Source: Isoptericola sp. AK164 (GTDB lineage Bacteria > Actinomycetota > Actinomycetes > Actinomycetales > Cellulomonadaceae). From it: a stretch of 64,000 bases of DNA. Below the pieces are notes generated by a model. That model had not been told where the DNA came from. It searched no databases and saw only the letters and a list, made by a program, of their open reading frames with translations. The position numbers were made by a program, and so were the translations under genes. Positions within the stretch are counted from its first letter, which is position 1, and each line of letters starts with the position of its first letter. The stretch spans positions 558,001 to 622,000 of the forward strand of contig NZ_CP119106.1 in NCBI RefSeq assembly GCF_029643425.1, read 5' to 3'. Of this stretch, positions 97-49,202 are shown piece after piece.

Positions 97-211
97 GCTT
101 CCTCTCCCCGTCGACAGTAGCGTGCGCTGCCGCCGGAGGTGAGCGGTGGCAGTGGTGCCACGGATCGTATCGGTTCGGGCGGTCCGTCGCCGCCTGCCGC
201 GCCGGTAGGCT

Positions 212-224: not shown

Positions 225-245
225 CTGCGTCCGTGAGGACGGCTC

Positions 246-295
246 TTGCGCCGCACGGGAGGACACGGGTACCTTGGAGGCGTTGAAACGATTCA
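246..295 (+). promoter_or_regulatory. rhaM promoter with TGAA-N4-TTCA operator
   Basis: TTGCGC (246-251) and TACCTT (270-275), 18 bp apart, form a plausible sigma-70-type promoter. TGAAACGATTCA at 284-295 lies just downstream, about 32 bp before the rhaM start, where a bound repressor would block transcription. The same 12-bp palindrome type precedes all three PL11 lyase genes in this window, which argues for a shared regulator. Confidence 0.55.
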
Positions 296-326
296 TCGCG
301 CGTCGACGATGATGCGAGGAGGAACA

Positions 327-692
327 GTGGGAGACGACGGTAAGCGCCGGGTCATGTTCCAGTTCCGGGTCCACCCGGACCGGCTGGAGGAGTACGGTCG
401 CCGCCACGGCGAGGTCTGGCCCGAGATGCTGCGGGCCCTGCACGAGGCCGGCTGGGAGAACTACTCGATCTTCACCGCACCCGACGGTCAGGTCGTGGGC
501 TACTTCGAGAGCGCCGACCCGGACGCCGCGCGGGCCCGGATGGGGCTGACCGAGGTCAACGCCCGCTGGCAGGCCGAGATGGCCGAGTTCTTCGACGGCG
601 ACGGACCGGACGCGACCATGACCGAGCTGACGCCGGTCTTCCACCTCGAGACGCAGCTCGCCGCCGCGGACGCCGCGGACGACCAGGACTGA
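327..692 (+). CDS. rhaM: L-rhamnose mutarotase
   Basis: The enzyme interconverts alpha and beta anomers of L-rhamnose in the cytoplasm, supplying the form used by the isomerase. The 121-residue product matches the usual ~105-residue family once its N-terminal tail is discounted. It has the typical FQFRVHPDRLEEYGRRHGEV opening (sugar-binding Tyr and His), a WENYSIF strand and a late MTELTPVFHLE. An open frame extends upstream to 246, but the GTG at 327 is preferred because AGGAGG (317-322) sits just before it. It is the first gene of the rha operon, 12 bp before the isomerase gene. Confidence 0.85.
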   Translation: MGDDGKRRVMFQFRVHPDRLEEYGRRHGEVWPEMLRALHEAGWENYSIFTAPDGQVVGYFESADPDAARARMGLTEVNARWQAEMAEFFDGDGPDATMTELTPVFHLETQLAAADAADDQD

Positions 693-704
693 GAGAAGGA
701 CACC

Positions 705-1871: not shown

Positions 1872-1874
1872 GGC

Positions 1875-8043: not shown

Positions 8044-8925
8044 TCAGAGGTGCGGGGCGACGTGCTCCGCGTAGCGCTCCGCGACCGTCCGCGCGGTCTT
8101 GACCGGGTCCGCCGCCCAGATCCCCTCGTTGAAGATCTCGGTCTCGACGTCGCCGGTGTACCCGGCGTCGCGCACCCAGGACGAGATCGTCGCGAAGTCG
8201 ATGTACCCGTCGCCGACGTGCCCGCGCGAGTTCAGCGCCGTGGCGCCGAACGGCAGGTTCCAGTCGCAGACCTGATAGCTCGCGATCCGCCCCTCGCGAC
8301 CGGCCCGCTCGATCGACCCCCGCAGCTCCGGGTCCCACCACACGTGGTAGGTGTCCACCACGACGCCCACGGTGCGGGCGTCGAACGGGGCGGACAGGTC
8401 GAGCGCCTGACCCAGCGTGGAGATCACCGCGCGGTCGGCGGCGAACATCGGGTGCAGCGGCTCGAGGACGATCCGCACGTCGTGCTCCGCCGCGATCGGC
8501 GCGAGGTCGGCCAGCCGGTCCGCCACCCGGGCACGGGCCGCGACGACGTCACGGTCGGTGCCGGGCGCCGGGGGCGCCTCGGGGGAGGACCCCGGCAGGC
8601 CGCCGACGACGAACACGAGCTCGCGCGTCCCGACCGCGGCGGCCTCCTCGATCGCCCGGGTGTTCTCCGCGATCGCGTCGCGGACGCCCTCGTCCGTGGC
8701 GGCCGTGAGGAACCCGCCCCGGCACAGCGAGGAGACGGTCAGCCCGGCGTCCTCGACGATCGTGCGGGCGGTCTCGGCGCCGTGCTCGGCGACCTGGTGC
8801 CGCCACAGCCCGACGGCGCCCATCCCGGCGGCGGCCGCCGCCTGGACCGCCTCGGGCAGCGAGGCGTGCTTGACCGTGGCGGTGTTGAGCGAGCAGCGCG
8901 ACAGGTCCGCGCTCTGCGCGCTCAT
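8044..8925 (-). CDS. Sugar phosphate isomerase/epimerase family TIM-barrel protein
   Basis: A 293-residue AP-endonuclease-2/xylose-isomerase-like barrel. Likely metal ligands include Glu in IVLEPLHPMF, Asp/His in VVVDTYHVWWD, and late Glu residues in DVETEIFNE. The start ATG at 8925 has a strong AAGGAGGG. It is the third gene of a leftward operon (oxidoreductase, DUF993 protein, this gene). Such barrels isomerise or epimerise keto-sugars, or dehydrate 3-keto-inosose-like compounds. The substrate is not identifiable from sequence, but linkage to a Gfo/Idh oxidoreductase suggests an oxidised sugar or cyclitol. Confidence 0.75.
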   Translation of the reverse strand: MSAQSADLSRCSLNTATVKHASLPEAVQAAAAAGMGAVGLWRHQVAEHGAETARTIVEDAGLTVSSLCRGGFLTAATDEGVRDAIAENTRAIEEAAAVGTRELVFVVGGLPGSSPEAPPAPGTDRDVVAARARVADRLADLAPIAAEHDVRIVLEPLHPMFAADRAVISTLGQALDLSAPFDARTVGVVVDTYHVWWDPELRGSIERAGREGRIASYQVCDWNLPFGATALNSRGHVGDGYIDFATISSWVRDAGYTGDVETEIFNEGIWAADPVKTARTVAERYAEHVAPHL

Positions 8926-9010
8926 GCGATTCCCTCCTTGCGTGACCGCTGCGGTGCCTCGCTGCGGTACACCTCGTTCCTCGGCGTCCCTCCGCGGGGG
9001 CTCCTCGCGC

Positions 9011-10294
9011 TCACGAGTCGACCCCGTTCGTCGTCAGCAGCGCCCGCAGCCGCACCGCGGCCAGGTCCGGGTCGAGCAGCATGCCGCAGTCGTCGGCCAG
9101 CCGGGCCAGCGTGACCAGGTGGGCCAGGGACCGGCCGGAGTGCAGTCCGCCGACGAGCTGGAAGCCCTCCTGGAAGCCGTTCAGCCAGCTGAGGAACGCC
9201 ACGCCGGTCTTGTAGTAGTAGGTCGGCGCGGCGAAGATGTGCCGCCCGAGCTTCTCGGTCGAGGCGAGGATGGAGTACCCCCGCGCGGCGCCCTCGTCGT
9301 CCCCGTCCGCACCGGCGTCGAACGCCTGCAGCGCGGTGGAGGCCGCCGGATAGATCGCCGCGAAGATGCCGAGCAGCGCGTCCGAGTAGCCCTGGGAGTC
9401 GCCGGCGATGAGCTCGGGGTAGTTGAAGTCGTCGCCGGTGTACAGCCGCACGCGTGACCCGTCCAGCGCCGCGAGGGTGCGACGTAGCCCGATCTCGTGC
9501 TGGGCGTCCAGCAGCGAGACCTTCACGCCGTCGACCTTGTCCTGGTGGGCCTTGATGAGGTCGACGAACGTCGCCGTCGCGGTCTCGACCGAGTCCGAGC
9601 CCCAGTAGCCGGCCAGCGCCGGGTCGAACATCGTGCCGAGCCAGTGCAGGACCACCGGCTGGTCGGCCTCGGCGAGCACGGCGTCGTAGACCCGGGCGTA
9701 GTCCTCGGCGGACCGGGCGACCTTCGCCAGCGCGCGGGAGGCCATGACGATCACCTGCGCGCCGGCCTCCTGCACGACCCGGACCTGCTCGCGGTACGCC
9801 TCGACGACGGCGTCGAGCGCCGCCGCGTCCCCGCGCTGCCACCCGGCCACGCGGGCGGGGTCGAGCTGGTCGGTGCCGGCGCCGCAGGCGATGGCACCGC
9901 CGACGGACGCGGCCTCGGCGGCCGAGCGGCGCACGAGCTCCTGGGTGGCGGCCCAGTCCAGGCCCATGCCGCGCTGGGCGGTGTCCATGGCGTCGGCGAC
10001 GCCCAGGCCGTACCGCCAGATCTGGTGGCGGTAGGCGAGGGTGGCATCCCAGTCGACGACGGCGGGGGCGCCGGGCACGTTCTCGGCCCCGATCTGCGGG
10101 ACCACGTGCGCGGCGGCGAAGGCGACCCGCGACCGGATCGACCCGGTCGGCGCCTGCCACGGGCCGGGGGCGTTGAGTTCGCGCACCTCGGTCCCGGCGA
10201 CGCGACCGCCGTCGTCGAACCGTGGCAGCCGCACGGTCGCGCCGCTGGCCTCGAGCACCGGGGCGCCGGCGGCGCCCGTCACCGCGGCGCTCAC
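9011..10294 (-). CDS. DUF993 family, dihydrodipicolinate-synthase-like protein
   Basis: A 427-residue protein of the DUF993 family, annotated as related to DapA/NAL class I aldolases. Segments such as PVVLHWLGTMFDPALAGYWG, VDGVKVSLLD (a Lys in the strand where Schiff-base aldolases carry theirs) and YTGDDFNYPEL fit a TIM barrel. The GTG at 10294 overlaps the stop of the upstream oxidoreductase gene (GTGA), showing tight coupling; a much longer open frame continues upstream but is the antisense-free shadow of that gene. A retro-aldol or keto-acid lyase reaction is an inference. No characterised member is known to me. Confidence 0.72.
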   Translation of the reverse strand: MSAAVTGAAGAPVLEASGATVRLPRFDDGGRVAGTEVRELNAPGPWQAPTGSIRSRVAFAAAHVVPQIGAENVPGAPAVVDWDATLAYRHQIWRYGLGVADAMDTAQRGMGLDWAATQELVRRSAAEAASVGGAIACGAGTDQLDPARVAGWQRGDAAALDAVVEAYREQVRVVQEAGAQVIVMASRALAKVARSAEDYARVYDAVLAEADQPVVLHWLGTMFDPALAGYWGSDSVETATATFVDLIKAHQDKVDGVKVSLLDAQHEIGLRRTLAALDGSRVRLYTGDDFNYPELIAGDSQGYSDALLGIFAAIYPAASTALQAFDAGADGDDEGAARGYSILASTEKLGRHIFAAPTYYYKTGVAFLSWLNGFQEGFQLVGGLHSGRSLAHLVTLARLADDCGMLLDPDLAAVRLRALLTTNGVDS

Positions 10295-35171: not shown

Positions 35172-36524
35172 TTGTCCTCCACCACCAGCCGCCTCCGCTA
35201 CGCCGTCGTCGGCACCGGCCACCGTGCCGGCATGTTCGTCGGCGGGCTGCTCGAGAACCACGCCGACGAGGGCGAGATCGTCGCCTGGGTCGAGCCCAAC
35301 CCGGTGCGTGCCGCCGTCCACGAGGCGCGCGTCGCCGCCAAGGTCGGCGGCACCCGCCCGGTCTACGCCCCGGCCGACCTGGAGAGGGCGATCGCCGAGC
35401 AGCAGGTCGACCGCGTCGTGGTCACCAGCGTCGACAACACCCACGCCGAGATGGTCTCCCGGGCCCTGCGCGCCGGCGTCGACGTCGTGGTGGAGAAGCC
35501 CATCGCCGCCTCGGCCGACGAGGCGCGGCAGATCGCCGACGCCGTGGCCGAGACCGGCCGCGACGTCACGATGACCTTCAACTACCGCTACTCGCCGCGG
35601 AACTCGGCGCTGCGCGAGGTCGTCGCCTCCGGCGAGATCGGGCAGGTGCTGTCCGTGCACTTCGACTGGGCGCTGGACACCGTCCACGGGGCCGACTACT
35701 TCCGGCGCTGGCACCGCGAGAAGGTCAACAACGGCGGGCTGCTGGTGCACAAGTCGAGCCACCACTTCGACCTCGTCAACTGGTGGATCGACGACGTGCC
35801 GACCCGGGTCTTCGCCAGCGGCGGCCGCCGGTTCTACGGCGACGACGGCGCGCACGAGACGGACTACGAGCCCACCGCGGGCGAGCAGGACCTGCGGGCC
35901 CGGGGCGTGGACCCGTGGGCGATGGACCTCGACAAGGACCCGTACCTGCTCGAGCTCTACGGACCCGAGGCCCAGGCGCACGACGGCTACGTGCGCAACA
36001 AGTCGGTGTTCGACGCCGGCATCACCACCGAGGACACGCTCGGCCTGGTCGTCGAGTACGCCGGCGGGGCGATGCTGACCTACTCCCTGACGGCGCACAG
36101 CCCCTGGGAGGGGTACCGCGTCGTGGTCAACGGCACGCGGGGCCGCGCCGAGCTGGAGGTCGTCGAGCGCGGGTCCGTGCTCTTCGGCGACGACGGGCGC
36201 GCCGTGCTGGACCCGAGCTTCAGCGACGCCTACGCCGAGGACGCCGTGCGCCCCGTGGGCGAGCGCCTCGTCGTGCAGCGGCACTGGGAGCAGGCCGAGG
36301 AGCGCCCGATCGTCGCGGTCGCCGCCGGCGGGCACGGCGGTGGCGACACGCTGCTGCTCTCGGACGTGTTCCACGGCCGCGACGAGGTCGACCCGCTGGG
36401 ACGTGCCGCGGGGTTCCTCGACGGCCTGCGCGCCTCGGGCGTGGGGTACGCGGGCAACCGCTCGCTGGAGACGGGGGAGCCGGTGCGTCTCGCCGACCTC
36501 GGCCTCGGCGTCGACCTGGGCTGA
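35172..36524 (+). CDS. Gfo/Idh/MocA family oxidoreductase
   Basis: A 450-residue NAD(P)-dependent dehydrogenase for sugars or cyclitols. The Rossmann motif is AVVGTGHRAGMFVGG, the catalytic EKP is VVVEKPIA with Lys109, and the second domain has NNGGLLVHKSSHHFDLVNWW with the expected active-site His cluster. The C-terminal part is longer than in typical members. Translation starts at TTG 35172, supported by AGGAG six bases upstream. A LacI-type operator lies in its promoter. It is followed by a long palindrome and then a degenerate paralogue. Substrate unknown. Confidence 0.82.
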   Translation: MSSTTSRLRYAVVGTGHRAGMFVGGLLENHADEGEIVAWVEPNPVRAAVHEARVAAKVGGTRPVYAPADLERAIAEQQVDRVVVTSVDNTHAEMVSRALRAGVDVVVEKPIAASADEARQIADAVAETGRDVTMTFNYRYSPRNSALREVVASGEIGQVLSVHFDWALDTVHGADYFRRWHREKVNNGGLLVHKSSHHFDLVNWWIDDVPTRVFASGGRRFYGDDGAHETDYEPTAGEQDLRARGVDPWAMDLDKDPYLLELYGPEAQAHDGYVRNKSVFDAGITTEDTLGLVVEYAGGAMLTYSLTAHSPWEGYRVVVNGTRGRAELEVVERGSVLFGDDGRAVLDPSFSDAYAEDAVRPVGERLVVQRHWEQAEERPIVAVAAGGHGGGDTLLLSDVFHGRDEVDPLGRAAGFLDGLRASGVGYAGNRSLETGEPVRLADLGLGVDLG

Positions 36525-36727: not shown

Positions 36728-37780
36728 ATGACGTCCACGACCGCACCCGCGACGGCACCCGCCCCCGCACGTCCGGCGGGCCGCCCGCCGGCTCCTGGCC
36801 CGGACCGGCCGCGCACCGCCGTGCGCACCGCACGACGACGGGCCGTCCTCGTGGGCGACGGTCCGACGGCGGAGGCCGTCCGTGACGCGCCGGCCGGGCC
36901 GCACGCCGACGTCGTCGACCTGGTCGCCGACCTGGTCGGCGGCTCGGCGTCGAGCGAGGCCGCCGACGTCGACCGGCTGGTGCGCGAGACGGCGCCGGAC
37001 GTCGTCGTGGTCGCGTCCTCCCGCCCGACAGCCGCCGTCGTCGCCGCCCTGGACACCGGCGCGGACGTCGTGCTGGACGGCGCACCGGCCGGGGCCGGCG
37101 AGATCTACACGCTGGCCGAGGCCGTGCGGCGCGCCGAGGGCCGGCTCTCCGCCGCCTTCGACGACCGCTACGCCGCGGCCGCGGCGGAGCTGCGCCGGGT
37201 CGTGGCCGACGGGCGGCTCGGCACGGTGGTCTCGGCCCACGCCGAGTGGCTCCACGCGAACCGCGACCCCCGGACCGCGGCCGCGCGCACCAGCCGCCGG
37301 GCCGACATGCTCGGATGGTGGATCGACGACCTGCCGGTGTCCGTGTTCGCCCAGGGGCCGGGGTCCACGGGCCGGGCATCCGGCGTCGCGTCCGGCCACG
37401 GCATGGTGCTCGGCTACCAGGACGGGGCGACGGTCACCTGCAGCGAGACGGCGGGCGGTCCGCGCACCGGCTACCGGGTCGCGGTGAACGGGACGCTGGG
37501 CCGGGCGGACCTCGAGGTCGTCCACGGGCAGGGGGCCCGGCTCGTGGTGCACCGGCACGGCGGCGGCGCGGACGTCGTCCTGGACGCCGGTGCCGTCGCA
37601 ACCGACGGGCGCTCGGCCATGCTCCGCGCCCTGCTGGCGGGCGGCGACGACGCCGGACCGCTGCGCCGTCGCGCCGACGGGTCCGACCTGCTGCGTGCCG
37701 CCGGGGTCGCGGCCGCGGCCGCCCGCTCGGCGGCCTCGGGCCGCGCGGTCCCGCTGAGCGCGCTCGGCCTGGCGCTCTGA
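36728..37780 (+). CDS. Degenerate Gfo/Idh/MocA-like protein, catalytic motif lost
   Basis: A 350-residue divergent paralogue of the gene upstream. Shared blocks include GWWIDDLPVSVFAQG (upstream: NWWIDDVPTRVFASG) and GYRVAVNGTLGRADLEVV (upstream: GYRVVVNGTRGRAELEVV). The nucleotide-binding loop is VLVGDGPTAEAV, not GxGxxG. The EKP segment has become VLDGAP (residues 115-120), removing the catalytic Lys, and the HKSSHHFD histidine cluster is replaced by TSRRADML. The frame is intact and has its own operator and promoter region. It may be non-enzymatic (binding or sensing), or a gene decaying without frameshifts. An Ala/Pro-rich N-terminal tail of about 35 residues is extra. Confidence 0.75.
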   Translation: MTSTTAPATAPAPARPAGRPPAPGPDRPRTAVRTARRRAVLVGDGPTAEAVRDAPAGPHADVVDLVADLVGGSASSEAADVDRLVRETAPDVVVVASSRPTAAVVAALDTGADVVLDGAPAGAGEIYTLAEAVRRAEGRLSAAFDDRYAAAAAELRRVVADGRLGTVVSAHAEWLHANRDPRTAAARTSRRADMLGWWIDDLPVSVFAQGPGSTGRASGVASGHGMVLGYQDGATVTCSETAGGPRTGYRVAVNGTLGRADLEVVHGQGARLVVHRHGGGADVVLDAGAVATDGRSAMLRALLAGGDDAGPLRRRADGSDLLRAAGVAAAAARSAASGRAVPLSALGLAL

Positions 37781-37814: not shown

Positions 37815-38960
37815 TCAGCGGGTCCAGGGCGCCCCGAGCTCGCTGAACGTCTGCTGGCGGCGCGCGACCTGCTCGCACCAGTCGGCGACGTCGCTGACGA
37901 CCGGGTGCCGGGCGTCGCCCTCACCGACCCACGTGACGAGCTCGTCCGGCATCGGCCGCGGGTCCGGGCCGGTGCGGACGGCCTCCAGCACGCGCATGAA
38001 CGCGCCGGTGTCCCGCACGTCGCACAGCAGGCGGCGCTGCGGGTCGTCGTCGGCGCGCACCTCGAGCAGGTCCTCCAGCAGCGAGGTGCGGCCGTAGGTC
38101 TTGTCCAGGGTGAGGCGGTCGCTGCGCAGCACGAGCCGGTCGGACTCGTAGAACAGCTCGATCTCGCCCGCGGTGCCGAGCACCAGCACCCGGGCCCGGG
38201 TCCGCTCGGCCGCGCACAGGGTCAGGCCGAAGCCGTAGCGGGTGCCGTCCGCCGCGGTGACGCGGACCGAGGACGTGTCGTCGGCCTCGATCGGGTTGGC
38301 CCGGTAGAGGTCCGTGTCCACCCAGGCGACGTCCTCGGCGCGGGTCACGCCGCCGATCCGCAGCGCCGTGGCCACCGCGTGCGCGAGCGGGTTCGTCACG
38401 ACGCCGTCGACGACGTCGCGACCGTCCAGCCGTCGGCGGCCCGCCCACGGCGCCCGGGCCCAGTACGCGGCGTCGCGCACCCAGGTCCCGACGGCGCCGA
38501 ACCCGACGACGTCGCCGATCTCGCCGCGGGCGACGAGCTCGGACACCGCGGGCAGGGCGTGCGACCCGAAGGTCTGGAAGCCCACCTGGCAGGACCGGCC
38601 CGTGCGCTCGGTGACGGCGACGAGCTCGGTCAGCTCGGCCAGCGACGCCGTCGTCGGCTTCTCCAGCAGCACGTCCATGCCCGCCTCCATGGCCGCCCGG
38701 GCCAGCGGCAGGTGGGTGGGGATGGGCGTGCAGAGCACGACGACGTCGGGGCGGACGGCGTCGTCGGCCGACAGCAGGTCACCGAGGGTGGGGTACCAGG
38801 GGGTCCCGGCCCCGTGGGCCGGGTGGTCGGGGTCCGGCTCGCGCGGGTCCACGACCGCGCACAGCTCCGCGCGGCCCGCACGGGTCAGCTCGAGCGCGGT
38901 GCGGACGTGGTTGGTCCCGTGGCCGTGGATGCCGACCACGGCGAGGCGGGGGCTGCTCAT
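37815..38960 (-). CDS. Gfo/Idh/MocA family oxidoreductase
   Basis: A 381-residue dehydrogenase with a Rossmann start (LAVVGIHGHGTNHV), intact EKP in DVLLEKPTTAS near residue 98, and a C-terminal beta-sheet domain. GIHGHGTNH, with His in place of the usual GxGxxG, marks a subgroup. It lies 19 bp downstream of the LacI-DUF6807 fusion gene in the same leftward unit. By family knowledge DUF6807 (PmoA-like) proteins and Gfo/Idh proteins are often neighbours, so the pair probably acts on one sugar system. Convergent with the degenerate paralogue. Confidence 0.82.
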   Translation of the reverse strand: MSSPRLAVVGIHGHGTNHVRTALELTRAGRAELCAVVDPREPDPDHPAHGAGTPWYPTLGDLLSADDAVRPDVVVLCTPIPTHLPLARAAMEAGMDVLLEKPTTASLAELTELVAVTERTGRSCQVGFQTFGSHALPAVSELVARGEIGDVVGFGAVGTWVRDAAYWARAPWAGRRRLDGRDVVDGVVTNPLAHAVATALRIGGVTRAEDVAWVDTDLYRANPIEADDTSSVRVTAADGTRYGFGLTLCAAERTRARVLVLGTAGEIELFYESDRLVLRSDRLTLDKTYGRTSLLEDLLEVRADDDPQRRLLCDVRDTGAFMRVLEAVRTGPDPRPMPDELVTWVGEGDARHPVVSDVADWCEQVARRQQTFSELGAPWTR

Positions 38961-38979: not shown

Positions 38980-40947
38980 TCAGCGCAGGCCGGTGGCCAG
39001 CGCGGCGGCGTCGTCGATGTCGAGCTCCCGGTCCAGCAGGGCCGCCACGACGCCGGTCTCGACGGTCCCGCCGGCGGGGACCCGCAGAGGGGTGTCCCAG
39101 GCCAGGGCGGGGCAGGCGCCGGGGTACTCGGCGGCGCGCAGGAACCAGTGCCGTGCGGGGGAGGTCTGGGTCAGGAGCGTGGTCGTGCTGTGCTCCTCGC
39201 CCCGCGCGTCGCGGTGGCGCTGCACGAATGCCACCCACGGCGAGGTCGAGCCGTGCGCGAGGTCCTCGCCCTCGCCCTCGGCGGACAGCACGCGCGTCCG
39301 GTGCGCCAGCGGGAGCCGCCAGAACAGTCCTCCGTAGCCGGCGCCGGGCCGGCCGTTCGTCGCGGGGGAGCTGATCTGCAGCGGGCCGTGCGCGGCGTGC
39401 AGCGTGGAGCGCCACTCCAGCACCCACCCGTCGTCCAGCAGGCGTGCCCCGACGCGACGTCGCTCGTCGAGCACCGGGCGGCCGTGCTCGTCGGTCCAGG
39501 CGACCGTGTCCAGCAGGACGTTCGGGGACAGCGGGTCGATCGTGGTCTGGACCGACGTCTGGCGGCCGTGGTTGGGCAGCAGCGTCGGGCCGACGTCGGC
39601 GACGAACGTGCGCCCGCCCCAGTAGCTGGTGCCGTTGACGTCGGGCACGGCGAGGCTGACCCCGTAGTGGTGGCGGTGGTCGACCGGGCCCGACTCCGTC
39701 AGCGGGATCCCGGCCAGCGAGCTCACCGGGTGCAGGAACGGTCGCGGCGAGTGGATGGTCGGCAGGTCCTGGCCGGAGTCGTAGCGGGCCAGCGGTGCGC
39801 GGTCGACGCTGCGGTAGAGCGCGGGCACCCCCTGCTCGAGGCTCCAGGCGGGGTCCTGCTCGGCCTGGGTGACCTCCGGGACGGCGGTGGCGGCGGCCAC
39901 CGGGTCCTCGGGCAGGGCCGTGGCGCGCACGGCCGAACGGGGTACCGGTCCGGTGCTCGCGCGGACCTGGAGCTGGACCCCGAAGCGCGTCGTCTCGGCC
40001 GCGTGACCGGCGTCGTCGACCACGGCGTGCAGCTCGCGCCAGGCGTGCCGTCCCAGGTCCTGCTGCGGCACGGCGACGGTGGTCAGTGCCGGGGTGGCGT
40101 AGCGCGCCAGCTCGATGTCGTCGACGCCGCACACCGACAGGTCCGCCGGGACGGCGACGCCGGCCTCGTTCAGGGCGGCGAGCAGCCCGAAGGCCACCAG
40201 GTCGTTGAACGCCACGGCGGCCGTCACGCGGCTGGCCAGGACGTCCGGTGCCGCGGCGTGCCCGGCCGTGATGTCGGAGCCCGCGGGGAGGTCGACGACC
40301 TCGAGGTCCGGGTGACGCTCGCAGCTCGCGGTGAGGCCGCGGCGTCGTGCGATGTCGGAGACCGAGGCGCGGGGACCGGCGACGTAGGCGATGCGCCGGT
40401 GCCCGAGCTCGACGAGGTGCTCGACGACCTGCACCATCGCGTCGGCGTAGTCCACCACCAGGCTCGGGGCGCCGCGCGGGACGTCCCGGTTGACCACCAC
40501 GGCGGGGGAGACCTCCGGCAGCAGGGCGTCGAGCGCGCCGTCGGGCATGCGTGGCGAGACCAGGATGAGCGCGTCGCAGCGTGCGCGCGCCTCCCGGGCG
40601 ATCGACGCCTCGGTGCCGGGGTCCTCGGCCGAGTCCGCCACCAGCACGCGGTAGCCGTCCTCGCCGGCGGCGGAGGTGACGCCGCGCAGGATCTCCTGGA
40701 AGACGGGGTTGGCGAGGTCCGGGACGACGAGGGCCACGGTGGTGGTCCGGCCCAGCGAGAGGCTGCGCGCCACGTTGCTGGGGCGGTAGTTCAGCTCGAT
40801 CGCCGCCTCCTGCACGCGGGCGGAGATCGCGGGGTCCACGGTGCTGCGGCCGTTCATCACCCGGGAGACCGTCGCGCGGGAGACCCCGGCCGCTCGTGCG
40901 ACGTCGGCGATCGTCACCGCGGGTCGGCGCGTGGTCGCACCAGGCAT
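38980..40947 (-). CDS. LacI-type regulator fused to a DUF6807 (PmoA-like) domain
   Basis: One uninterrupted 655-residue frame. Residues 1-335 are a full LacI regulator: helix-turn-helix VTIADVARAAGVSRATVSRV, hinge, and effector domain ending in CGVDDIELARYATPALTTV and QVRASTGPVPRS, the usual LacI end. After a linker of about 35 residues, residues about 373-650 match DUF6807: FLHPVSSLAGIPLTESGPVD, HRHHYGVSLAVPDVNGTSYW, and late IDPLSPNVLLDTVAWTDEHG. Both halves look complete, so a frameshift or sequencing join is unlikely. The DUF6807 part might bind or modify the inducer. GGAGG precedes the ATG. It is divergent from a sugar ABC transporter with paired operators between. Confidence 0.87.
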   Translation of the reverse strand: MPGATTRRPAVTIADVARAAGVSRATVSRVMNGRSTVDPAISARVQEAAIELNYRPSNVARSLSLGRTTTVALVVPDLANPVFQEILRGVTSAAGEDGYRVLVADSAEDPGTEASIAREARARCDALILVSPRMPDGALDALLPEVSPAVVVNRDVPRGAPSLVVDYADAMVQVVEHLVELGHRRIAYVAGPRASVSDIARRRGLTASCERHPDLEVVDLPAGSDITAGHAAAPDVLASRVTAAVAFNDLVAFGLLAALNEAGVAVPADLSVCGVDDIELARYATPALTTVAVPQQDLGRHAWRELHAVVDDAGHAAETTRFGVQLQVRASTGPVPRSAVRATALPEDPVAAATAVPEVTQAEQDPAWSLEQGVPALYRSVDRAPLARYDSGQDLPTIHSPRPFLHPVSSLAGIPLTESGPVDHRHHYGVSLAVPDVNGTSYWGGRTFVADVGPTLLPNHGRQTSVQTTIDPLSPNVLLDTVAWTDEHGRPVLDERRRVGARLLDDGWVLEWRSTLHAAHGPLQISSPATNGRPGAGYGGLFWRLPLAHRTRVLSAEGEGEDLAHGSTSPWVAFVQRHRDARGEEHSTTTLLTQTSPARHWFLRAAEYPGACPALAWDTPLRVPAGGTVETGVVAALLDRELDIDDAAALATGLR

Positions 40948-41050: not shown

Positions 41051-41100
41051 GGGAAACCGGTTCCACCTGTGGTACGTTCCTCAGCAGCAACCGGTTTCCC
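41051..41100. promoter_or_regulatory. Paired LacI operators between the fusion regulator and the ABC transporter
   Basis: GGGAAACCGGTTCC (41051-41064) and GCAACCGGTTTCCC (41087-41100) are two copies of a GGAAACCGGTTTCC-type palindrome in opposite orientation. Their centres are 34 bp apart, close to three helical turns. CCACCTGTGG (41063-41072) is a further small palindrome between them. Cooperative binding of the divergent LacI-DUF6807 protein is likely. Confidence 0.65.
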
Positions 41101-41159: not shown

Positions 41160-41207
41160 ATGGTGTCCACCGCGACACGGCACGGGGAGGTGCCGTCATG
41201 TCCGTGA
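41160..41207 (+). CDS. 15-codon upstream ORF overlapping the permease start
   Basis: ATG at 41160 is preceded by a strong AGGAGG (41148-41153) and encodes MVSTATRHGEVPSCP, ending in TGA at 41205-41207. It is out of frame with the permease gene and overlaps its ATG (41198) by 10 bp. Its ribosome site is at least as strong as that of the permease, so it could couple or limit permease translation. It could also be a chance ORF; no family is known. Confidence 0.4.
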   Translation: MVSTATRHGEVPSCP

Positions 41208-42121
41208 TCCAGGAGGTTGCCAAGACGCGCGGTGCCGCCCGTGAGACGCGGAAGGGTGACGGCAAGGCCGCAGCGATCTTCCTCGCGCCCTGGTTCCTGG
41301 GCCTGGGGCTGATCACCGCCTTCCCCCTGCTCGCCTCGCTGTACCTGTCGTTCACCGACTACAGCCTGCTGGAGGCACCGAGCTGGATCGGCGTCCAGAA
41401 CTACGTCGACATGGTCTCGGACCCCCGATGGCTGAAGTCGCTGGGCGTGACGTTCCGCTACGTCTTCATCTCGGTGCCGCTCCAGCTCGCCGCCGCGCTC
41501 GCGCTGGCGATGGTGCTCGACCGCGGGCTGCGGGGGCTGGCGATCTACCGCTCGGCGTTCTACCTGCCGTCCCTGCTGGGGAGCTCGGTGGCGATCGCCC
41601 TGCTGTGGCGCCAGATCTTCGGCGCCGACGGCCTGGTCAACCAGGTGCTCGCCTACTTCGGCATCCAGGGCGTCGGCTGGGTCTCCCACCCGGACTACGC
41701 CCTGGGAACCCTGATGATCCTCAACGTGTGGACCTTCGGTGCACCGATGATCATCTTCCTCGCGGGGCTGCGCCAGATCCCCACGATGTACTACGAGGCC
41801 GCCTCCATCGACGGGGCGAGCAAGTTCCGGCAGTTCTTCAGCATCACGATCCCGCTGCTGAGCCCGATCATCTTCTTCAACCTCGTGCTCCAGCTCATCA
41901 ACGCCTTCCAGACCTTCACCCAGGCGTTCGTGATCTCCAACGGCACAGGTGGCCCGATCGACGAGACCTTGTTCTACACGCTGTACCTCTACAACCAGGG
42001 GTTCGGCTCGTACAACATGGGCTACGCCTCGGCGATGGCCTGGGTGCTGCTGCTCATCGTCGCCGGGCTGACGGCCGTCAACTTCCTCGCCTCCAAGTAC
42101 TGGGTCTTCTACGATGACTGA
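41198..42121 (+). CDS. Carbohydrate ABC transporter permease (MalF/LacF-type)
   Basis: A 307-residue inner-membrane permease with about six transmembrane helices. The EAA loop YYEAASIDGASKFRQFFSITIPLLSP near residue 205 docks the ATPase. It belongs to the CUT1 family that imports mono- and oligosaccharides. GGGGAGG precedes the ATG. It overlaps the second permease gene by 8 bp, and the binding-protein gene follows. No ATPase gene is nearby; a shared MsiK-type ATPase encoded elsewhere, as is usual in actinobacteria, is inferred. Control by the LacI-DUF6807 protein is likely. Confidence 0.92.
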   Translation: MSVIQEVAKTRGAARETRKGDGKAAAIFLAPWFLGLGLITAFPLLASLYLSFTDYSLLEAPSWIGVQNYVDMVSDPRWLKSLGVTFRYVFISVPLQLAAALALAMVLDRGLRGLAIYRSAFYLPSLLGSSVAIALLWRQIFGADGLVNQVLAYFGIQGVGWVSHPDYALGTLMILNVWTFGAPMIIFLAGLRQIPTMYYEAASIDGASKFRQFFSITIPLLSPIIFFNLVLQLINAFQTFTQAFVISNGTGGPIDETLFYTLYLYNQGFGSYNMGYASAMAWVLLLIVAGLTAVNFLASKYWVFYDD

Positions 42122-43070
42122 CACGCCCGTGCGCCCCGACGCACACGCCGCCACCACCGACGACCGGTCACCCGTGCGCCCCCGGCGCCCGCTGTCGGAG
42201 GTCGCCGCCGAGATCCCGGACTCCCCGCGCAAGCGGTCGTGGCAGCCCCGAGCGCGCCGGCTGCTGAAGCACGCGCTGCTCATCGGCTTCGGCCTGGTGA
42301 TGCTCTACCCGTTGCTGTGGATGCTGTCGAGCTCCTTCAAGCCGAACGACATCATCTTCCGTGACACGGGGCTGATCCCGACCGAGCTCGACCTGACCAA
42401 CTACGGCGACGGCTGGTTCGCGCTGCTGCACCCGTTCCACCACTACCTGCTGAACTCGGCGATCGTGGTGCTCGGATCGGTGCTCGGGAACCTCATCTCC
42501 TGCTCGATGGCGGCCTACGCCTTCGCACGGCTGAAGTTCCGCGGCCGGCCGATCTGGTTCGCCATCATGCTGATGTCGATCATGCTGCCGATCCACGTCG
42601 TCATCGTGCCGCAGTACATCCTGTTCTCCGAGCTGGAGTGGATCAACACGTTCCTCCCGCTCGTCGTGCCGAAGCTGCTGGCCACGGACGCGTTCTTCAT
42701 CTTCCTCATGGTGCAGTTCTTCCGCGGGCTGCCGAAGGACCTCGATGAGGCGGCACGTCTGGACGGCTGCGGGCACGGCCGGATCTTCCTGCAGATCATG
42801 CTGCCGCTGTCGCTCCCGGCCCTGGCGACGACGGCGATCTTCACGTTCATCTGGACGTGGAACGACTTCTTCAGTCAGCTCATCTTCCTCACCGACCCCG
42901 AGATGTACACCGTCCCGATCGCGTTGCGGACGTTCATCGACGCCACGAGCGCCAGCTCGTGGGGCCCGTTGTTCGCGATGTCGATCGTCTCCCTCGTCCC
43001 GATCTTCTTCATCTTCCTCTTCGGCCAGAAGTACCTGGTCAAGGGGATCGCCACGACCGGCATCAAGTAG
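42114..43070 (+). CDS. Carbohydrate ABC transporter permease (MalG/LacG-type)
   Basis: A 318-residue permease with six predicted helices and the EAA loop DEAARLDGCGHGRIFLQIMLPLSLPA near residue 220. The N-terminal ~50 residues are polar and basic and extend into the cytoplasm. It ends in KGIATTGIK, the typical C terminus of CUT1 MalG-type permeases. It pairs with the preceding MalF-type protein. Confidence 0.92.
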   Translation: MTDTPVRPDAHAATTDDRSPVRPRRPLSEVAAEIPDSPRKRSWQPRARRLLKHALLIGFGLVMLYPLLWMLSSSFKPNDIIFRDTGLIPTELDLTNYGDGWFALLHPFHHYLLNSAIVVLGSVLGNLISCSMAAYAFARLKFRGRPIWFAIMLMSIMLPIHVVIVPQYILFSELEWINTFLPLVVPKLLATDAFFIFLMVQFFRGLPKDLDEAARLDGCGHGRIFLQIMLPLSLPALATTAIFTFIWTWNDFFSQLIFLTDPEMYTVPIALRTFIDATSASSWGPLFAMSIVSLVPIFFIFLFGQKYLVKGIATTGIK

Positions 43071-43148: not shown

Positions 43149-44504
43149 ATGCGAGCAACGACCACACGACGCGGCCGCCGGAACGCCGCCGCCTTCATCG
43201 CGCTGACCGCGGCGAGCACCCTCGCGCTGGGTGCCTGCTCGGGAGACGCCGGCGGCCCGGCCGCCGAGGGCGACGACACCGGGTCGTCCGAGGAGGGCGG
43301 CGGTGACGGCGGCGACGGCGTCGAGATCCGCTTCTCGTGGTGGGGTTCCGACGACCGTCACCAGACCACCCAGGAGATCATCGACCTCTTCGAGGAGAAG
43401 AACCCGGACATCACCGTGGTGCCCGACTTCACCGACTGGGGCGGGTACTGGGACAAGCTGGCGACCACGGTCGCCGGCGGTGACACCCCCGACGTCATCA
43501 CCCACGAGGAGCGCTTCATCGCCGACTACGCCAACCGCGGCGTGCTCGCGGACCTGGAGTCCCTCGACATCGACACCTCCGAGGTCCCCGAGAGCATCAT
43601 CGACTCCGGTCGCGTCGACGGGACCCTGTACGGCATGGCCACCGGCGTGAACGCCTACGCCATCACGGCGGACCCGACGGTGTTCGAGGAGGCCGGCGTC
43701 GAGATGCCGGACGACACGACCTGGACGTGGGACGAGTTCGTCGAGATCTCGGCGCAGATCTCCGAGGCCGCCGGCGACGGCGTCTGGGGCACCCAGGACA
43801 TCGGCTTCAACGAGGCCGGGCTCAACATCCTCGCCCGCCAGAAGGGCCAGTCGCTCTACAACGAGGACGGCTCGCTCGGTGTCGACGCCGAGACCGTGGC
43901 CGAGTTCTTCCAGATCGGCGTGGACCTGCAGGAGTCGGGTGGTACGCCGGACGGCTCGCGCACCATCGAGATCCAGAACGCCGGCCCCGAGGGCTCGCTG
44001 CTCGGCACGAACGCCGGCGCCATGGGCGTCTGGTGGACCAACCAGCTCGGCGCCCTGAGCGCCGCCTCGGGCCACGAGCTCGAGCTGCTGCGCATGCCGG
44101 GCGAGTCGGAGTTCGAGCGCACCGGCATGTACTTCAAGCCGGCCATGTTCTACTCCGTCGCCGAGGACACGGAGCACCCGGAGGCCGCGGCGAAGTTCGT
44201 CGACTTCCTGGTCAACGACCCGGAGGTCGCGCAGCTGCAGCTCACCGACCGCGGTCTGCCGTCGAACCTGTCGGTGCGCGAGTCCATCGAGGGCCAGCTC
44301 GAGGCCGCCGACGCGCGTGTCGCGGAGTTCATGGCCGACCTCGAGTCCGACATCGTGGACGGTCCGCCGGTGCCGCCGAACGGCGCCGGTGACGTCCAGG
44401 ACGTCATGATCCGGCTCAACACCGAGGTGCTCTTCGGTTCCATGACGCCGGAAGAGGCCGCCGAGCAGTTCCTCACCGAGGTCGCGGAGGTGACCGGGAG
44501 CTGA
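43149..44504 (+). CDS. Sugar-binding lipoprotein of the ABC transporter
   Basis: A 451-residue extracellular solute-binding protein, family 1. The lipobox LALGAC places the lipidated Cys near residue 29, followed by an acidic Gly-rich linker (about 30-57) and the two-lobed binding fold, with FSWWGSDDRHQTTQEIIDLF and DVITHEERFIADYANRG. A start next to AAGGAGAA supports the ATG. It is the most downstream transporter gene and is followed by a strong terminator. The specificity is unknown; a pectin-, xylan- or cyclitol-derived saccharide is plausible from context. Confidence 0.92.
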   Translation: MRATTTRRGRRNAAAFIALTAASTLALGACSGDAGGPAAEGDDTGSSEEGGGDGGDGVEIRFSWWGSDDRHQTTQEIIDLFEEKNPDITVVPDFTDWGGYWDKLATTVAGGDTPDVITHEERFIADYANRGVLADLESLDIDTSEVPESIIDSGRVDGTLYGMATGVNAYAITADPTVFEEAGVEMPDDTTWTWDEFVEISAQISEAAGDGVWGTQDIGFNEAGLNILARQKGQSLYNEDGSLGVDAETVAEFFQIGVDLQESGGTPDGSRTIEIQNAGPEGSLLGTNAGAMGVWWTNQLGALSAASGHELELLRMPGESEFERTGMYFKPAMFYSVAEDTEHPEAAAKFVDFLVNDPEVAQLQLTDRGLPSNLSVRESIEGQLEAADARVAEFMADLESDIVDGPPVPPNGAGDVQDVMIRLNTEVLFGSMTPEEAAEQFLTEVAEVTGS

Positions 44505-44544: not shown

Positions 44545-44594
44545 CGACGGGTGCGGGGTCGTCGCCGGAGCCTCCGGCGGCCCCGCACCCGTCG
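44545..44594 (+). terminator. Two-level hairpin terminator after the transporter operon
   Basis: CGACGGGTGCGGGG (44545-44558) pairs perfectly with CCCCGCACCCGTCG (44581-44594). The loop holds a second perfect stem, CGCCGGAG/CTCCGGCG (44563-44579). It lies 40 bp after the binding-protein stop and probably separates it from the UxaA-type gene. Confidence 0.8.
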
Positions 44595-44673
44595 CTCCCC
44601 GGCCGCGGGCGGTCGGGAACCGGCCCCGCCCACCGGCGGGGCTGACCCGTGTGCGAAGGACGGAACGATCGCG

Positions 44674-46269
44674 ATGAACGACCTGCTCGTGCTGCGTGAC
44701 GGCGACGACGTCGCCGTGGCCACCCGGGACCTGAGCCCCGGCGACCGTGCCGGGACGCCCGACGGCGGTGCCGTCGTCGTGCGCGACCCCGTCCCCCGCG
44801 GGCACAAGCTCGCCCTGCGGGCCGTGGCCGCCGGGGACCCGGTGCGCAAGTACGGGCAGGTCATCGGTGTCGCGACCTCCGCCGTCGAGCCCGGTGACCA
44901 CGTCCACGCCCACAACCTCGGGTTCGACCCGGGCGAGCGGGAGGCTCCCCTCGGTGGCGAGCACACCGAGCTGGTGGTGCCCGACGGGCCGCGCCCGACG
45001 TTCCGGGGATACCGGCGCTCCGACGGCCGGGTCGGCACCCGCAACTACGTCGCCATTCTGACCAGCGTGAACTGCTCGGCCTCGACGGCGCGGATGATCG
45101 CCGACCAGTTCCGCGGTGCCGCGCTCGACGAGTACGAGCACGTCGACGGGGTCGTGCCCCTGACGCACACCTCCGGCTGCGGCCTGGTGCCGGACTCCGA
45201 GGGCGGGCAGGTGCTGCTGCGCACCCTGCGCGGGTACGCCGCCCACCCCAACGTCGCCGGGGTGCTCGTGCTGGGCCTGGGCTGCGAGATGGTGCCCGGG
45301 GCGGCGCTGTCCGCCCGGTCGGGGACCGTGACCGACCTGGGGATGCCCGGCGTGGGCGCCCCGGACCCGGAGGACTCCTCCGCGCTGCTGGCCGCCATCC
45401 CCGACGACACCGTCGTGCGCTCGATGACGATCCAGGAGACCGGGGGAGTGCGCGCCACGGTGCGTGCCGGCGTCGAGGAGATCCGGGCGATGCTGCCCGA
45501 GGTGAACGCCCGGCGCCGGACCGAGTGCGACGTGGCCGATCTCGTCCTCGGGCTGAACTGCGGCGGCTCGGACGGCTACTCCGGCATCACCGCCAACCCG
45601 GCCCTCGGCTGGGCCTCGGACCGGATCGTCGGCTACGGCGGCACCTCGGTGCTGGCCGAGACGCCCGAGGTCTACGGTGCCGAGCACCTGCTGACGGCCC
45701 GGGCCACGTCGCCCGGGGTGGCGAAGAAGCTGCTCGACCGCATCGACTGGTGGCAGGACTACGTCGCCGCCGGCGGCGGCACCCTCGACAACAACCCCTC
45801 GCCGGGCAACAAGGCGGGCGGGCTGACCACGATCCTGGAGAAGTCGCTCGGCGCCGTGGCCAAGGGCGGCCAGGCGGACCTGGCCGCGGTGTACGAGTAC
45901 GCCGAGCCGATCACCGACCGCGGCTTCACCTTCATGGACACCCCGGGCTACGACCCGGTCTCCGTGACGGGGCTGGTCGCCGGCGGCGCGAACGTCGTCG
46001 TCTTCACCACCGGTCGCGGGTCGGTCTTCGGCTGCCGCCCGACGCCGTCGATCAAGGTTGCCACGAACACGCCCATGTACGAGCGCATGAGCGAGGACAT
46101 GGACGTCAACGCCGGGCGCATCGTCGACGGCACCGCCGCGCTGGAGGAGGTCGGCGCCGAGCTGCTCGAGCGGATCCTCGCCGTGGCCTCGGGAGAGCGC
46201 ACCGTCAGCGAGGAGCTGGAGATCGGCACCGAGGAGTTCATCCCCTGGCACCTGGGTGCGGTGACCTGA
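44674..46269 (+). CDS. UxaA-family altronate/galactarate dehydratase
   Basis: A 531-residue protein with an N-terminal SAF domain (about 1-95, VGDH-type strand VEPGDHVHAHNL) and a C-terminal altronate hydrolase domain. It contains RVGTRNYVAILTSVNCSAST, THTSGCGLVPDSEG, GLGCEMVPG and NCGGSDGYSGITANPALGW. The cysteines and His are conserved iron-binding candidates. UxaA dehydrates D-altronate to 2-keto-3-deoxygluconate in galacturonate breakdown; related enzymes act on galactarate and other sugar acids. Neither UxaB nor UxaC is here, so the true substrate is open. The ATG at 44674 has only a weak, distant AAGGA. Confidence 0.82.
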   Translation: MNDLLVLRDGDDVAVATRDLSPGDRAGTPDGGAVVVRDPVPRGHKLALRAVAAGDPVRKYGQVIGVATSAVEPGDHVHAHNLGFDPGEREAPLGGEHTELVVPDGPRPTFRGYRRSDGRVGTRNYVAILTSVNCSASTARMIADQFRGAALDEYEHVDGVVPLTHTSGCGLVPDSEGGQVLLRTLRGYAAHPNVAGVLVLGLGCEMVPGAALSARSGTVTDLGMPGVGAPDPEDSSALLAAIPDDTVVRSMTIQETGGVRATVRAGVEEIRAMLPEVNARRRTECDVADLVLGLNCGGSDGYSGITANPALGWASDRIVGYGGTSVLAETPEVYGAEHLLTARATSPGVAKKLLDRIDWWQDYVAAGGGTLDNNPSPGNKAGGLTTILEKSLGAVAKGGQADLAAVYEYAEPITDRGFTFMDTPGYDPVSVTGLVAGGANVVVFTTGRGSVFGCRPTPSIKVATNTPMYERMSEDMDVNAGRIVDGTAALEEVGAELLERILAVASGERTVSEELEIGTEEFIPWHLGAVT

Positions 46270-46814: not shown

Positions 46815-46864
46815 GGCCTCATGGTAGCCGGAATGAGCGGTCTCTGAGACGAGTTGTCACTGAT

Positions 46865-46885
46865 ATCGTCTGTGCAGCAGACGAT
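46865..46885. promoter_or_regulatory. MarR-type operator before the oxidase fusion gene
   Basis: ATCGTCTG and CAGACGAT form a perfect inverted repeat around TGCAG (46865-46885). A related core, GTCTCTGAGAC, is at 46840-46850. Both lie in the divergent region between the MarR gene and the oxidase gene. Confidence 0.6.
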
Positions 46886-46934
46886 CTCTCGGGCGACGTG
46901 CTCGGGAGCGCCACCCTCGCCCGGAGGTCCCCGC

Positions 46935-49202
46935 ATGACGGACTACGGCCACGACCTGGTCTTCGGTACGTTCCTCACCCCGTCCAACCGCGACCCGCAG
47001 GCGCCCGTGCGCCTGGCACGGACGGCCGAGTCCGCCGGGCTGGACCTGGTCACCTTCCAGGACCACCCCTACCAGCCCGGGTTCCTCGACACCTGGACGC
47101 TGATCGCCTACGCGGCCGCCGTCACCGAGCGCGTGCACCTCGCCGGCAACGTGCTCAACCTGCCGCTGCGCCAGCCGGCGGTGCTCGCCCGGTCCGTGGC
47201 CAGCCTCGACCTGCTCAGCGGCGGGCGCATCGACCTCGGCCTCGGTGCGGGCGGGTTCTGGGACGCGATCGAGTCGATGGGCGGCGAGCGGCTCACTCCT
47301 GGGGAGTCCGTCGACGCGCTGTCCGAGGCGATCGAGATCATCCGGGGCGTCTGGGACGCCGGCGAGCGACGTCCTCTGCGCACCGCCGGGGAGCACCACC
47401 GGGTCTCCGGTGCCAAGCGTGGTCCCGCCCCCGCGCACGACGTGCCGATCTGGCTGGGCGCGTACAAGCCCCGCATGCTGCGGCTCGTGGCGCGGCAGGC
47501 CGACGGGTGGCTGCCGTCGCTGGGGTACATGAAGGACGGCGACCTGGCCCGCGGCAACGCGATCATCGACGCCACGGCCGAGGAGGCCGGGCGGCACCCG
47601 GCCGAGATCCGGCGCCTGCTGAACGTCCAGGGCGCGGTCACGGCCGACCGGCAGGGCTTCCTGCAGGGTCCGGTGGACCAGTGGGTCGAGGAGCTCGCGG
47701 GGCTGGCCCTGCACGACGGCGTCGGCACGTTCATCACGGCCACCGACGACCCCCAGATGCTCGCCGTCCTCGGCGGCGAGATCGCCCCGGCCGTGCGCGA
47801 GCTGGTGGCCCGCGAACGGGCCTCGGCCGGCACCCCCGCGGCGGCCACCCGGCGCGGCCGCTCCGCGATCGAGCTGCGGCGCGAGGGCATCGACTACGAC
47901 GCGGTGCCCGCCGCGCTGGCCGAGCGCGCCGTCGAGCCCGGCGACCGCGCCTACGACGCCGTGCGCCACAACTACCTGCGCTCCGGCGCCCCCGGCCTGG
48001 TGCTGCGGCCGCGCACCACCGCGGAGGTGGCCGACGCCGTCGCCTGGGCGCGGTCGCAGGACGTCCCGCTGGGCATCCGCTCGGGCGGGCACGGCATCAG
48101 CGGCCGGTCCACGAACGACGGCGGCATCGTCGTCGACCTCGGCGCGCTGGACCGGATCGAGGTGGTGGACGAGGCGACGCGGCGGGTGCGGCTCGGCGCC
48201 GGTGCCACCTGGGGGCAGGTCGCCGAGGCGCTCGCGCCGCGCGGCTGGGCGATCAGCTCGGGCGACTACGGCGGTGTCGGCGTCGGCGGGCTCGCCACCG
48301 CGGGCGGGGTCGGGTTCCTCGGACGGACCTACGGGCTGACCATCGACCACGTCGTCGCGGCGGAGGTCGTCACGGCCGACGGCCGGGTCGCCCACGCCTC
48401 CGCCGAGGAGAACCCGGACCTGTTCTGGGGCCTGCGCGGCGCCGGCGGCAACCTCGGGGTCGTCACCTGGGTGGAGATCGAGGCCATGGCGCTGGAGAAC
48501 GTCGTCTTCTCCCAGATGGCGCTCGACGCGACCGACACCGCCGGCCTGCTGGAACGCTGGGGCGCCGCGGTGGAGTCCGCGCCGCGCGAGCTGACCAGCT
48601 TCCTCATCCTGTCCCCGGCGCGTGCGGGCCAGGGACCGGTCGCCCAGCTCATGACCGTCTACGCCGGCCACGACACCGACGCCGCCGTCGAGCAGCTCGA
48701 ACGGCTCGCCGACGCCGGACCGCTGCTCGGGCACCAGGCCTACCTCATGCCGTACTCCGGCGTCGTCCAGGCGGGGGACAAGCACCACTCCGGCGGGGGA
48801 GACCCGGCCGTGCGGTCGGGGCTGGTGCCCCACCTGGACACGGCGACGAGCCGCGCCTTCGAGCGTCTCGCGCACTCGGGCGACGCCTACTTCCTGCAGG
48901 TCCGGGCCACCGGCGGGGCTGCCCACGACGTGCCGGACGACGCGACCGCGTACGCGCACCGGCGACAGAACTTCCTGCTGTCGGCCATGTCGTCGAGCCA
49001 GGAGCGGATCGACCGCGCCTGGGACGCCGAGATGGCGCCGTACACCGAGGGGCTCTACCTCTCCTTCGACACGGACACCCGGCCCGAGCGGCTGGCCGAG
49101 GCGTTCCCGGAGCCGACGCTGTCGCGGCTGCGCGAGGTCAAGGCCGAGTGGGACCCGGACAACCTCTTCCGGGCGAACTTTCCGGTCCGCCCGGCCCTCT
49201 GA
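46935..49202 (+). CDS. LLM luciferase-like oxidoreductase fused to an FAD-linked (BBE-type) oxidase
   Basis: A 755-residue fusion. Residues about 1-300 are a luciferase-like monooxygenase (FLTPSNRDPQAPVRLARTAESAGLDLVTFQDHP, RIDLGLGAGGFWD), using F420 or FMN. Residues about 320-755 are a PCMH-type FAD oxidase: GIRSGGHGISGRS with His386 as the likely covalent flavin link, GVGVGGLATAGGVGFLGR, and a C-terminal berberine-bridge block NLFRANFPVRP. The second covalent Cys of bicovalent enzymes is absent (SSGDYGGVG). GGAGG 7 bp before ATG 46935 fixes the start. Regulated by the divergent MarR gene. Substrate unknown; two flavin steps on one small molecule are inferred. Confidence 0.85.
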   Translation: MTDYGHDLVFGTFLTPSNRDPQAPVRLARTAESAGLDLVTFQDHPYQPGFLDTWTLIAYAAAVTERVHLAGNVLNLPLRQPAVLARSVASLDLLSGGRIDLGLGAGGFWDAIESMGGERLTPGESVDALSEAIEIIRGVWDAGERRPLRTAGEHHRVSGAKRGPAPAHDVPIWLGAYKPRMLRLVARQADGWLPSLGYMKDGDLARGNAIIDATAEEAGRHPAEIRRLLNVQGAVTADRQGFLQGPVDQWVEELAGLALHDGVGTFITATDDPQMLAVLGGEIAPAVRELVARERASAGTPAAATRRGRSAIELRREGIDYDAVPAALAERAVEPGDRAYDAVRHNYLRSGAPGLVLRPRTTAEVADAVAWARSQDVPLGIRSGGHGISGRSTNDGGIVVDLGALDRIEVVDEATRRVRLGAGATWGQVAEALAPRGWAISSGDYGGVGVGGLATAGGVGFLGRTYGLTIDHVVAAEVVTADGRVAHASAEENPDLFWGLRGAGGNLGVVTWVEIEAMALENVVFSQMALDATDTAGLLERWGAAVESAPRELTSFLILSPARAGQGPVAQLMTVYAGHDTDAAVEQLERLADAGPLLGHQAYLMPYSGVVQAGDKHHSGGGDPAVRSGLVPHLDTATSRAFERLAHSGDAYFLQVRATGGAAHDVPDDATAYAHRRQNFLLSAMSSSQERIDRAWDAEMAPYTEGLYLSFDTDTRPERLAEAFPEPTLSRLREVKAEWDPDNLFRANFPVRPAL

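Follow-up and report, generated by a model that had tools for sequence, protein, structure and literature searches.

The question raised by this locus is why a complete LacI-type regulator should run on, in one reading frame, into a complete DUF6807 domain, and what the second half might do for the first. The window, that is, the whole stretch of 64,000 nucleotides from the chromosome of Isoptericola sp. AK164 that was analysed, contains on its minus strand an ORF for 655 residues which begins with ATG, is preceded closely by GGAGG and has no internal stop (Table 1). According to Pfam, a LacI helix-turn-helix, a full sugar-binding core, an Ala/Pro-rich linker and a complete DUF6807 domain follow one another in a single chain; Peripla_BP_3 is matched from model position 1 to 167 of 167 (121.9 bits), DUF6807 from 6 to 269 of 270 (207.3 bits, cut-off 27). 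The reading of the earlier note, a complete LacI protein continuing without a stop into a complete DUF6807 domain with an HRHH-type motif, is therefore borne out. The features that mark LacI-family members are found as well: the PF00356 helix-turn-helix, the effector core and, judged from the sequence pattern, palindromic operator-like sites near the gene. In the predicted full-length structure the sugar core matches LacI, CcpA and PurR of the PDB (LacI and CcpA with Z about 30), and residues 338–360 of the linker have a pLDDT under 50. The linker also differs in length among aligned relatives, the length figures including negative values where domain edges overlap. In NCBIfam the DUF6807 half matched nothing; the matches were confined to models of the LacI type and of sugar-binding proteins, all below cut-off.

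Table 1. Features of the LacI-DUF6807 locus (coordinates are those of the window)
Feature	Coordinates	Strand	Basis or remark
LacI-DUF6807 fusion gene	38980..40947	-	655 aa; ORF and Pfam
LacI helix-turn-helix, residues 12–57	40777..40914	-	Pfam PF00356, 59.8 bits, cut-off 27
Periplasmic-binding-like sugar core, residues 69–332	39952..40743	-	PF00532 at 69–310, PF13377 at 175–332
Ala/Pro-rich flexible linker, about residues 336–380	39808..39942	-	Low pLDDT, variable length
DUF6807 domain, residues 381–651	38995..39807	-	PF14100; predicted mutarotase-like fold
D423-H-R-H-H427 motif, candidate active site	39667..39681	-	Conservation of D, H, H
Operator-like palindrome proximal to fusion gene	41052..41065	+	Sequence pattern
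Operator-like palindrome proximal to transporter	41086..41099	+	Sequence pattern
Gfo/Idh/MocA dehydrogenase	37815..38960	-	Pfam; ATG at 38960, 19 bp downstream of fusion
Sugar ABC permease 1, divergent	41198..42121	+	PF00528
Sugar ABC permease 2	42114..43070	+	PF00528
Sugar solute-binding protein	43149..44504	+	PF01547, PF13416
UxaA/GarD-family (galactarate/altronate) dehydratase	44551..46269	+	PF20629, PF04295, PF08666; start uncertain, 44674 possible
Second Gfo/Idh gene of the neighbourhood	35172..36524	+	Pfam; operator-like site GGAAACCGCTTTC with one mismatch at 35132

LacI, CcpA, PurR and RbsR, LacI-family repressors of sugar operons (regulons in PMC4052901), have in common with this locus the helix-turn-helix, the sugar-binding core, palindromic AACCGGTT-type sites and a divergent sugar transporter. 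LacI factors are described in PMC4052901 as two-domain proteins, and in its main text the words "fused" and "fusion" do not occur; the window protein, in contrast, adds a complete C-terminal domain of 270 residues with a predicted enzyme fold. DUF6807 is a common domain of carbohydrate clusters, and the tail is a full-length match to PF14100 which adjoins a Gfo/Idh gene as standalone members do; classical standalone copies carry DHVWHKG, whereas the copy in the window reads DHRHHYG and is fused to a repressor. In search results PF14100 was also met under its old name "methane oxygenase/PmoA", which we take to be a misnaming. Literature searches yielded no published activity for any DUF6807 protein; a metagenomic operon is on record in which a PF14100 gene lies beside an enolase-superfamily gene and two new beta-galactosidases (PMC5342196).

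The nearest named relatives of the host belong to Isoptericola, and in 11/11 loci from named relatives (10 Isoptericola, one Myceligenerans) LacI and DUF6807 share one ORF; because the joined frame recurs in all of them, and because purifying selection acts on both halves in the pairs compared below, the fusion is real and no sequencing error. In the family, DUF6807 is present in 75 of 150 genomes. Twenty family loci, which were picked for long open frames so that their proportions are no frequencies, comprise 14 fusions, one locus whose linker is frame-shifted (L045) and five whose DUF6807 stands apart from LacI, in clusters of comparable type (L044, L055, L056, L057, L060); none of the best-scoring 30 family hits given as loci is a LacI fusion. 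In the order, at least 42 full-length matches were found in at least 40 of 396 genomes, and in five further genomes of family f19 (G169, G279, G350, G227, G292) both halves were matched as separate pieces in one frame, which brings the fusion to at least 45/396 genomes with six family labels (f1, f9, f11, f13, f14, f19). Among 396 genomes of the phylum, with three candidates scored per genome, E 1e-140 was reached by the own genome only, a level below which the f19 fusions score. PF14100 is matched in 21 of 392 genomes of the phylum; of the loci listed for these, only those of G000 (the own genome), G169 and G227, all of this order, have LacI in the same frame; no fusion was found outside the order in the genomes sampled. 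Searching plasmids by tblastn gave four records with the DUF6807 half, and in the one Nonomuraea region examined LacI and DUF6807 are separate ORFs.

The layout of dehydratase, solute-binding protein, two permeases, divergent LacI-DUF6807 and Gfo/Idh recurs in relatives, and Pfam identifies the facing genes as the sugar ABC transporter that had been read there before. In a second layout a GH43 gene directly precedes LacI-DUF6807 (for example L165–L169, L171, L174, L176). A pectate lyase gene comes right after Gfo/Idh in L007 and L011, and GH28, pectate lyase or pectinesterase, GH88, KduI and KduD are encoded at the loci of other relatives; near the GH43-DUF6807 gene of the own genome, a xylose isomerase and an FGGY kinase are found. 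With these pectin/uronate and plant-sugar enzymes nearby, the pathway points to pectin or related plant polysaccharides. That the Gfo/Idh dehydrogenase is a functional partner, as the earlier note had supposed from its position, is supported in two ways: of 30 family loci with standalone DUF6807 (L001, L015–L043), all but L016, that is 29, have Gfo/Idh as an immediate neighbour, and Pfam reveals Gfo/Idh-DUF6807 fusions in relatives (L172:6100-8100, L175:4188-6194, L209:373-2289), one of the three under another family label of the order. The own genome encodes, in addition, a GH43-DUF6807 fusion (L123:7073-9478, G000 about 2.832–2.834 Mb; Pfam). DUF6807 is thus joined, in separate proteins, to the LacI regulator, the Gfo/Idh dehydrogenase and the GH43 glycosidase of such clusters, which ties it to one pathway and makes its function testable. 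Two minor observations belong here: the second Gfo/Idh gene of the neighbourhood is followed by a weaker gene of this type (36851-37780, plus strand) in which only the C-terminal domain is matched, with 27.6 bits at a cut-off of 27; and in L172 the Gfo-DUF6807 gene is followed by one for a 717-residue protein (8113-10266, plus strand) to which, with the thresholds applied, neither Pfam nor NCBIfam assigned a family.

Between the fusion gene and the divergent transporter lie twin AACCGGTT palindromes with conserved spacing. Both fall within 41051–41100, the stretch at which the earlier note had proposed to test DNA binding. With up to two mismatches the palindrome is matched four times in the window, against 0.08 expected. 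The exact GGAAACCGGTTNC occurs three times in the genome of 3.58 Mb, at 41052 and 41087 of the window and at G000:2834492, the latter 14 bp before the assigned ATG of GH43-DUF6807; the reversed-pattern control gave 0 sites in the own genome. Ten of the 11 named-relative loci have two upstream sites 34–35 bp apart, and L013 has one. Exact GGAAACCGGTTNC sites are found in 20 of 22 relatives, each with at least one at its own LacI-DUF6807 locus (19 fused; that of G110 is the frame-split L045), and by coordinates 42 of the 74 sites in these 20 genomes belong to LacI-DUF6807 loci, whichever the layout, the other 32 being located elsewhere, with 0 for the reversed pattern across the relatives' genomes. 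G084, of the same genus and without DUF6807, has no exact GGAAACCGGTTNC site; G058 has no exact site either, a variant being present. In families f11, f13, f14 and f19, 23 of 25 loci (L085–L094, L097–L111) have no AACCGGTT within the 420 bp that immediately precede LacI. Similar sites may also serve other LacI regulators of this genome, so that the fused protein is only presumed to be the binder. One such gene starts at the left edge of the window (1–2849; L124), where GGAAACCGCTTCC at 212 precedes a gene reading like a rhamnose mutarotase, together with a RhaA-like isomerase; these genes probably form a rhamnose operon under a separate regulator.

What the tail may be is suggested by structure prediction. 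The full-length model was of low quality over DUF6807, and all 50 PDB matches listed for it were LacI-type or related sugar-binding proteins; the domain was therefore modelled alone (AlphaFold2, 12 sequences), giving a pLDDT of 67.6, with the motif region under 50, and a pTM of 0.72. For this model of pLDDT 67.6, the best VIA-align match was 3k25 (Z 14.2, rmsd 3.7, 209 residues aligned, 8% identity), and GalM 4bze was also matched (Z 13.6, rmsd 3.6, 211 aligned); the best Foldseek hit had E 1e-4 and TM 0.40. By sequence, none of 24 DUF6807 domains matched a solved structure significantly (best E 0.21). The tail is tentatively predicted to share the beta-supersandwich fold of the galactose mutarotase/aldose 1-epimerase superfamily, at Z about 12–14 and with only 5–13% identity in the listed matches, and this modelled fold would suit the sugar-handling role that had been proposed for it. 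The residues common to copies not fused to LacI, namely D423, H424, H427, W443-G-G, E495, R497, R544 and R604, are all present in the window protein. D423, H424 and H427 are kept in 40/40 copies not fused to LacI (31 classical; seven of similar clusters, two of these seven being fused to Gfo/Idh; and the copies of L003 and L096), while at least one motif residue is lost in 17 of 73 fused-type copies, E495, R497, R544 and R604 being kept in 73/73. The losses are not spread evenly: where Gfo/Idh lies directly downstream, the motif is kept in 34/34 fused copies; without it, 19/36 keep and 17/36 have lost it (Fisher p 1.4e-6, uncorrected for relatedness). The comparison covers 70 distinct fused copies, free of near-duplicates, with at least 500 bp of downstream sequence; a further 19 fused rows had less and were set aside. 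An intact motif is not confined to copies beside Gfo/Idh, as more than half of the 36 copies without it show; the converse alone holds.

We therefore consider, with a probability of about one half, that the protein is the LacI repressor of a plant-polysaccharide operon of the pectin/uronate type which carries, on a flexible linker, one of the pathway's enzymes in the form of a mutarotase-fold DUF6807 domain. When sugar is absent, the LacI half would sit on the twin AACCGGTT sites and shut both divergent promoters, that of its own gene and the Gfo/Idh gene and that of the transporter and the dehydratase; sugar entering the cell would free it from the sites. The DUF6807 half would then work on the same sugar or on the product of Gfo/Idh, for example as a mutarotase or as a lactonase before the dehydratase, by which repressor and enzyme would be made and controlled together; substrate at the tail would probably feed back on the repressor. 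Dehydrogenase, DUF6807 and dehydratase would suit an oxidative route from aldose via lactone and acid to a keto-deoxy acid. The pattern of conserved residues suggests that in the lineage of the window the tail may catalyse a step of the pathway, and that elsewhere it may be decaying to a structural or sensory role. Against the preferred reading count the 19/36 copies that keep the motif without Gfo/Idh next to them, the middling confidence of the domain model, the missing AACCGGTT before LacI in most f11, f13, f14 and f19 loci and the 32 exact sites at other places, besides the want of a published DUF6807 activity.

The two parts can exist apart. LacI and DUF6807 are separate genes in L096 and L224, where the stop codon of LacI overlaps the start codon of DUF6807 (GTGA in L096, ATGA in L224), so fusion is not obligatory; L113 and L114 have a LacI without the DUF6807 tail. 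The earlier note had named relatives with two separate proteins as evidence against the fusion; these relatives, together with the standalone copies of L044, L055–L057 and L060, do exist and show that the parts are separable, but they do not undo the fusion. In a tree of 113 DUF6807 rows, limited to domains of 200 to 360 residues and free of exact copies, the fused type forms one clade (73 rows: 70 fused, 3 split; support 98/91) whose sister consists of the GH43-DUF6807 of the own genome and L096. In a second tree of 62 chosen domains L224 joins these two, the support of the fused clade dropping to 91/79. The LacI tree (70 of 75 LacI rows and 11 rows as outgroup; five near-copies were removed by locus name, and L224 is not included) places L096 inside the fused clade on a long branch, whereas L096 and L224 lie outside in the DUF6807 trees; the unfused pairs may accordingly be either a pre-fusion state or later splits. 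The tail-less L113 and L114 fall, in the LacI tree, into clades whose other members are fused, one with 6 rows (100/99) and one with 12 (100/97), for which at least two losses of the tail are the simplest reading. An origin of the own GH43-DUF6807 by deletion of LacI from a GH43/LacI-DUF6807 operon was also considered; it is unsupported, as GH43-DUF6807 groups with L096 (and L224) in the DUF6807 trees, although long branches temper this evidence.

Such pairs lead to the alternative that fares best, in which the tail is an active DUF6807 enzyme joined to LacI by loss of a stop codon between overlapping operon genes, the halves working independently and without cross-talk. The overlapping unfused pairs, which in the DUF6807 trees form the sister branch of the fused copies, are what this alternative needs; the variable length of the linker agrees with it too, as do the regulator-free fusions of DUF6807 to Gfo/Idh and GH43. 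It is nevertheless unlikely in our view, for the fusion has been kept across six family labels and also where Gfo/Idh is not adjacent and the motif has decayed, that is, where a mere passenger enzyme should vanish.

The same decayed copies bear on a second alternative, that the DUF6807 half is a non-catalytic, lectin-like sugar-binding domain that adjusts the repressor, in the window protein as elsewhere. Both halves are under purifying selection in 6/6 pairs compared (dN/dS 0.11–0.25 for LacI, 0.11–0.32 for DUF6807), including two pairs that have lost the motif (0.24 and 0.32 for DUF6807). Two further points count against the reading preferred above: since the domain is kept in the 17 of 73 fused-type copies with a lost motif residue, retention of the fusion does not depend on catalysis in those copies, and since a tail-less LacI orthologue occurs in a similar cluster (L113), regulation there does not require the tail. 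In favour of the second alternative, several fused lineages have lost the motif and kept the rest of the domain, and there is a precedent in BzdR, a regulator with a shikimate-kinase-like domain whose enzyme activity was lost toward a sensor function, as described in PMC3602430. Extended to the window protein, however, this alternative is doubtful, more so than the independent enzyme, because D423, H424, H427, E495, R497 and other residues of the family are intact in the window's lineage and the Gfo/Idh pairing typical of standalone DUF6807 has been retained. Less probable by far than either, and practically negligible, is an artefact of this assembly in which a missing stop codon or a frameshift joins two genes, a doubt raised in the earlier note: the linker frame is indeed shifted in two genomes, but the identical joined frame is present in all 11 named relatives and dozens of genomes and aligns across genera. 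The two shifts, in L095 and L045, lie in the GC-rich Ala/Pro linker and may be due to sequencing error, decay or slippage.

The repressor with an enzyme of its own pathway, to return to the reading we prefer, may go further in one tentative respect, to which we give somewhat less than an even chance: as a bifunctional repressor-enzyme, for which both kinds of domain are present and which would count as a trigger enzyme, it would turn over the pathway sugar or the Gfo/Idh product in its tail, occupancy of which would tune the LacI half, and the order would keep the series from separate, overlapping genes over active fusion to decayed sensor. A single protein would then gauge not only concentration but also flux. 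Enzyme-derived domains are already known from other regulators; besides BzdR, MocR has an aminotransferase-like domain (PMC5320631). Both combine a DNA-binding half with an enzyme-derived half, as the window protein does; in these two the enzyme fold is the effector domain, whereas the LacI of the window keeps its full effector core and has the enzyme fold added. Literature searches turned up no LacI protein that combines the full effector core with a further, complete enzyme-fold domain, and no paper recognisable, from titles and the openings of abstracts, as describing the LacI-DUF6807 fusion. Should the tail be active, a classic LacI repressor would have incorporated one of its pathway's enzymes into its own polypeptide, and living intermediates would span the way from two genes over the fusion to a decayed active site. 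A further unusual fusion in the window, noted in passing, is a 782-residue ORF at 46854-49202 on the plus strand, which combines a luciferase-like monooxygenase (residues 46–270) with an FAD-binding/BBE oxidase (381–515 and 754–777).
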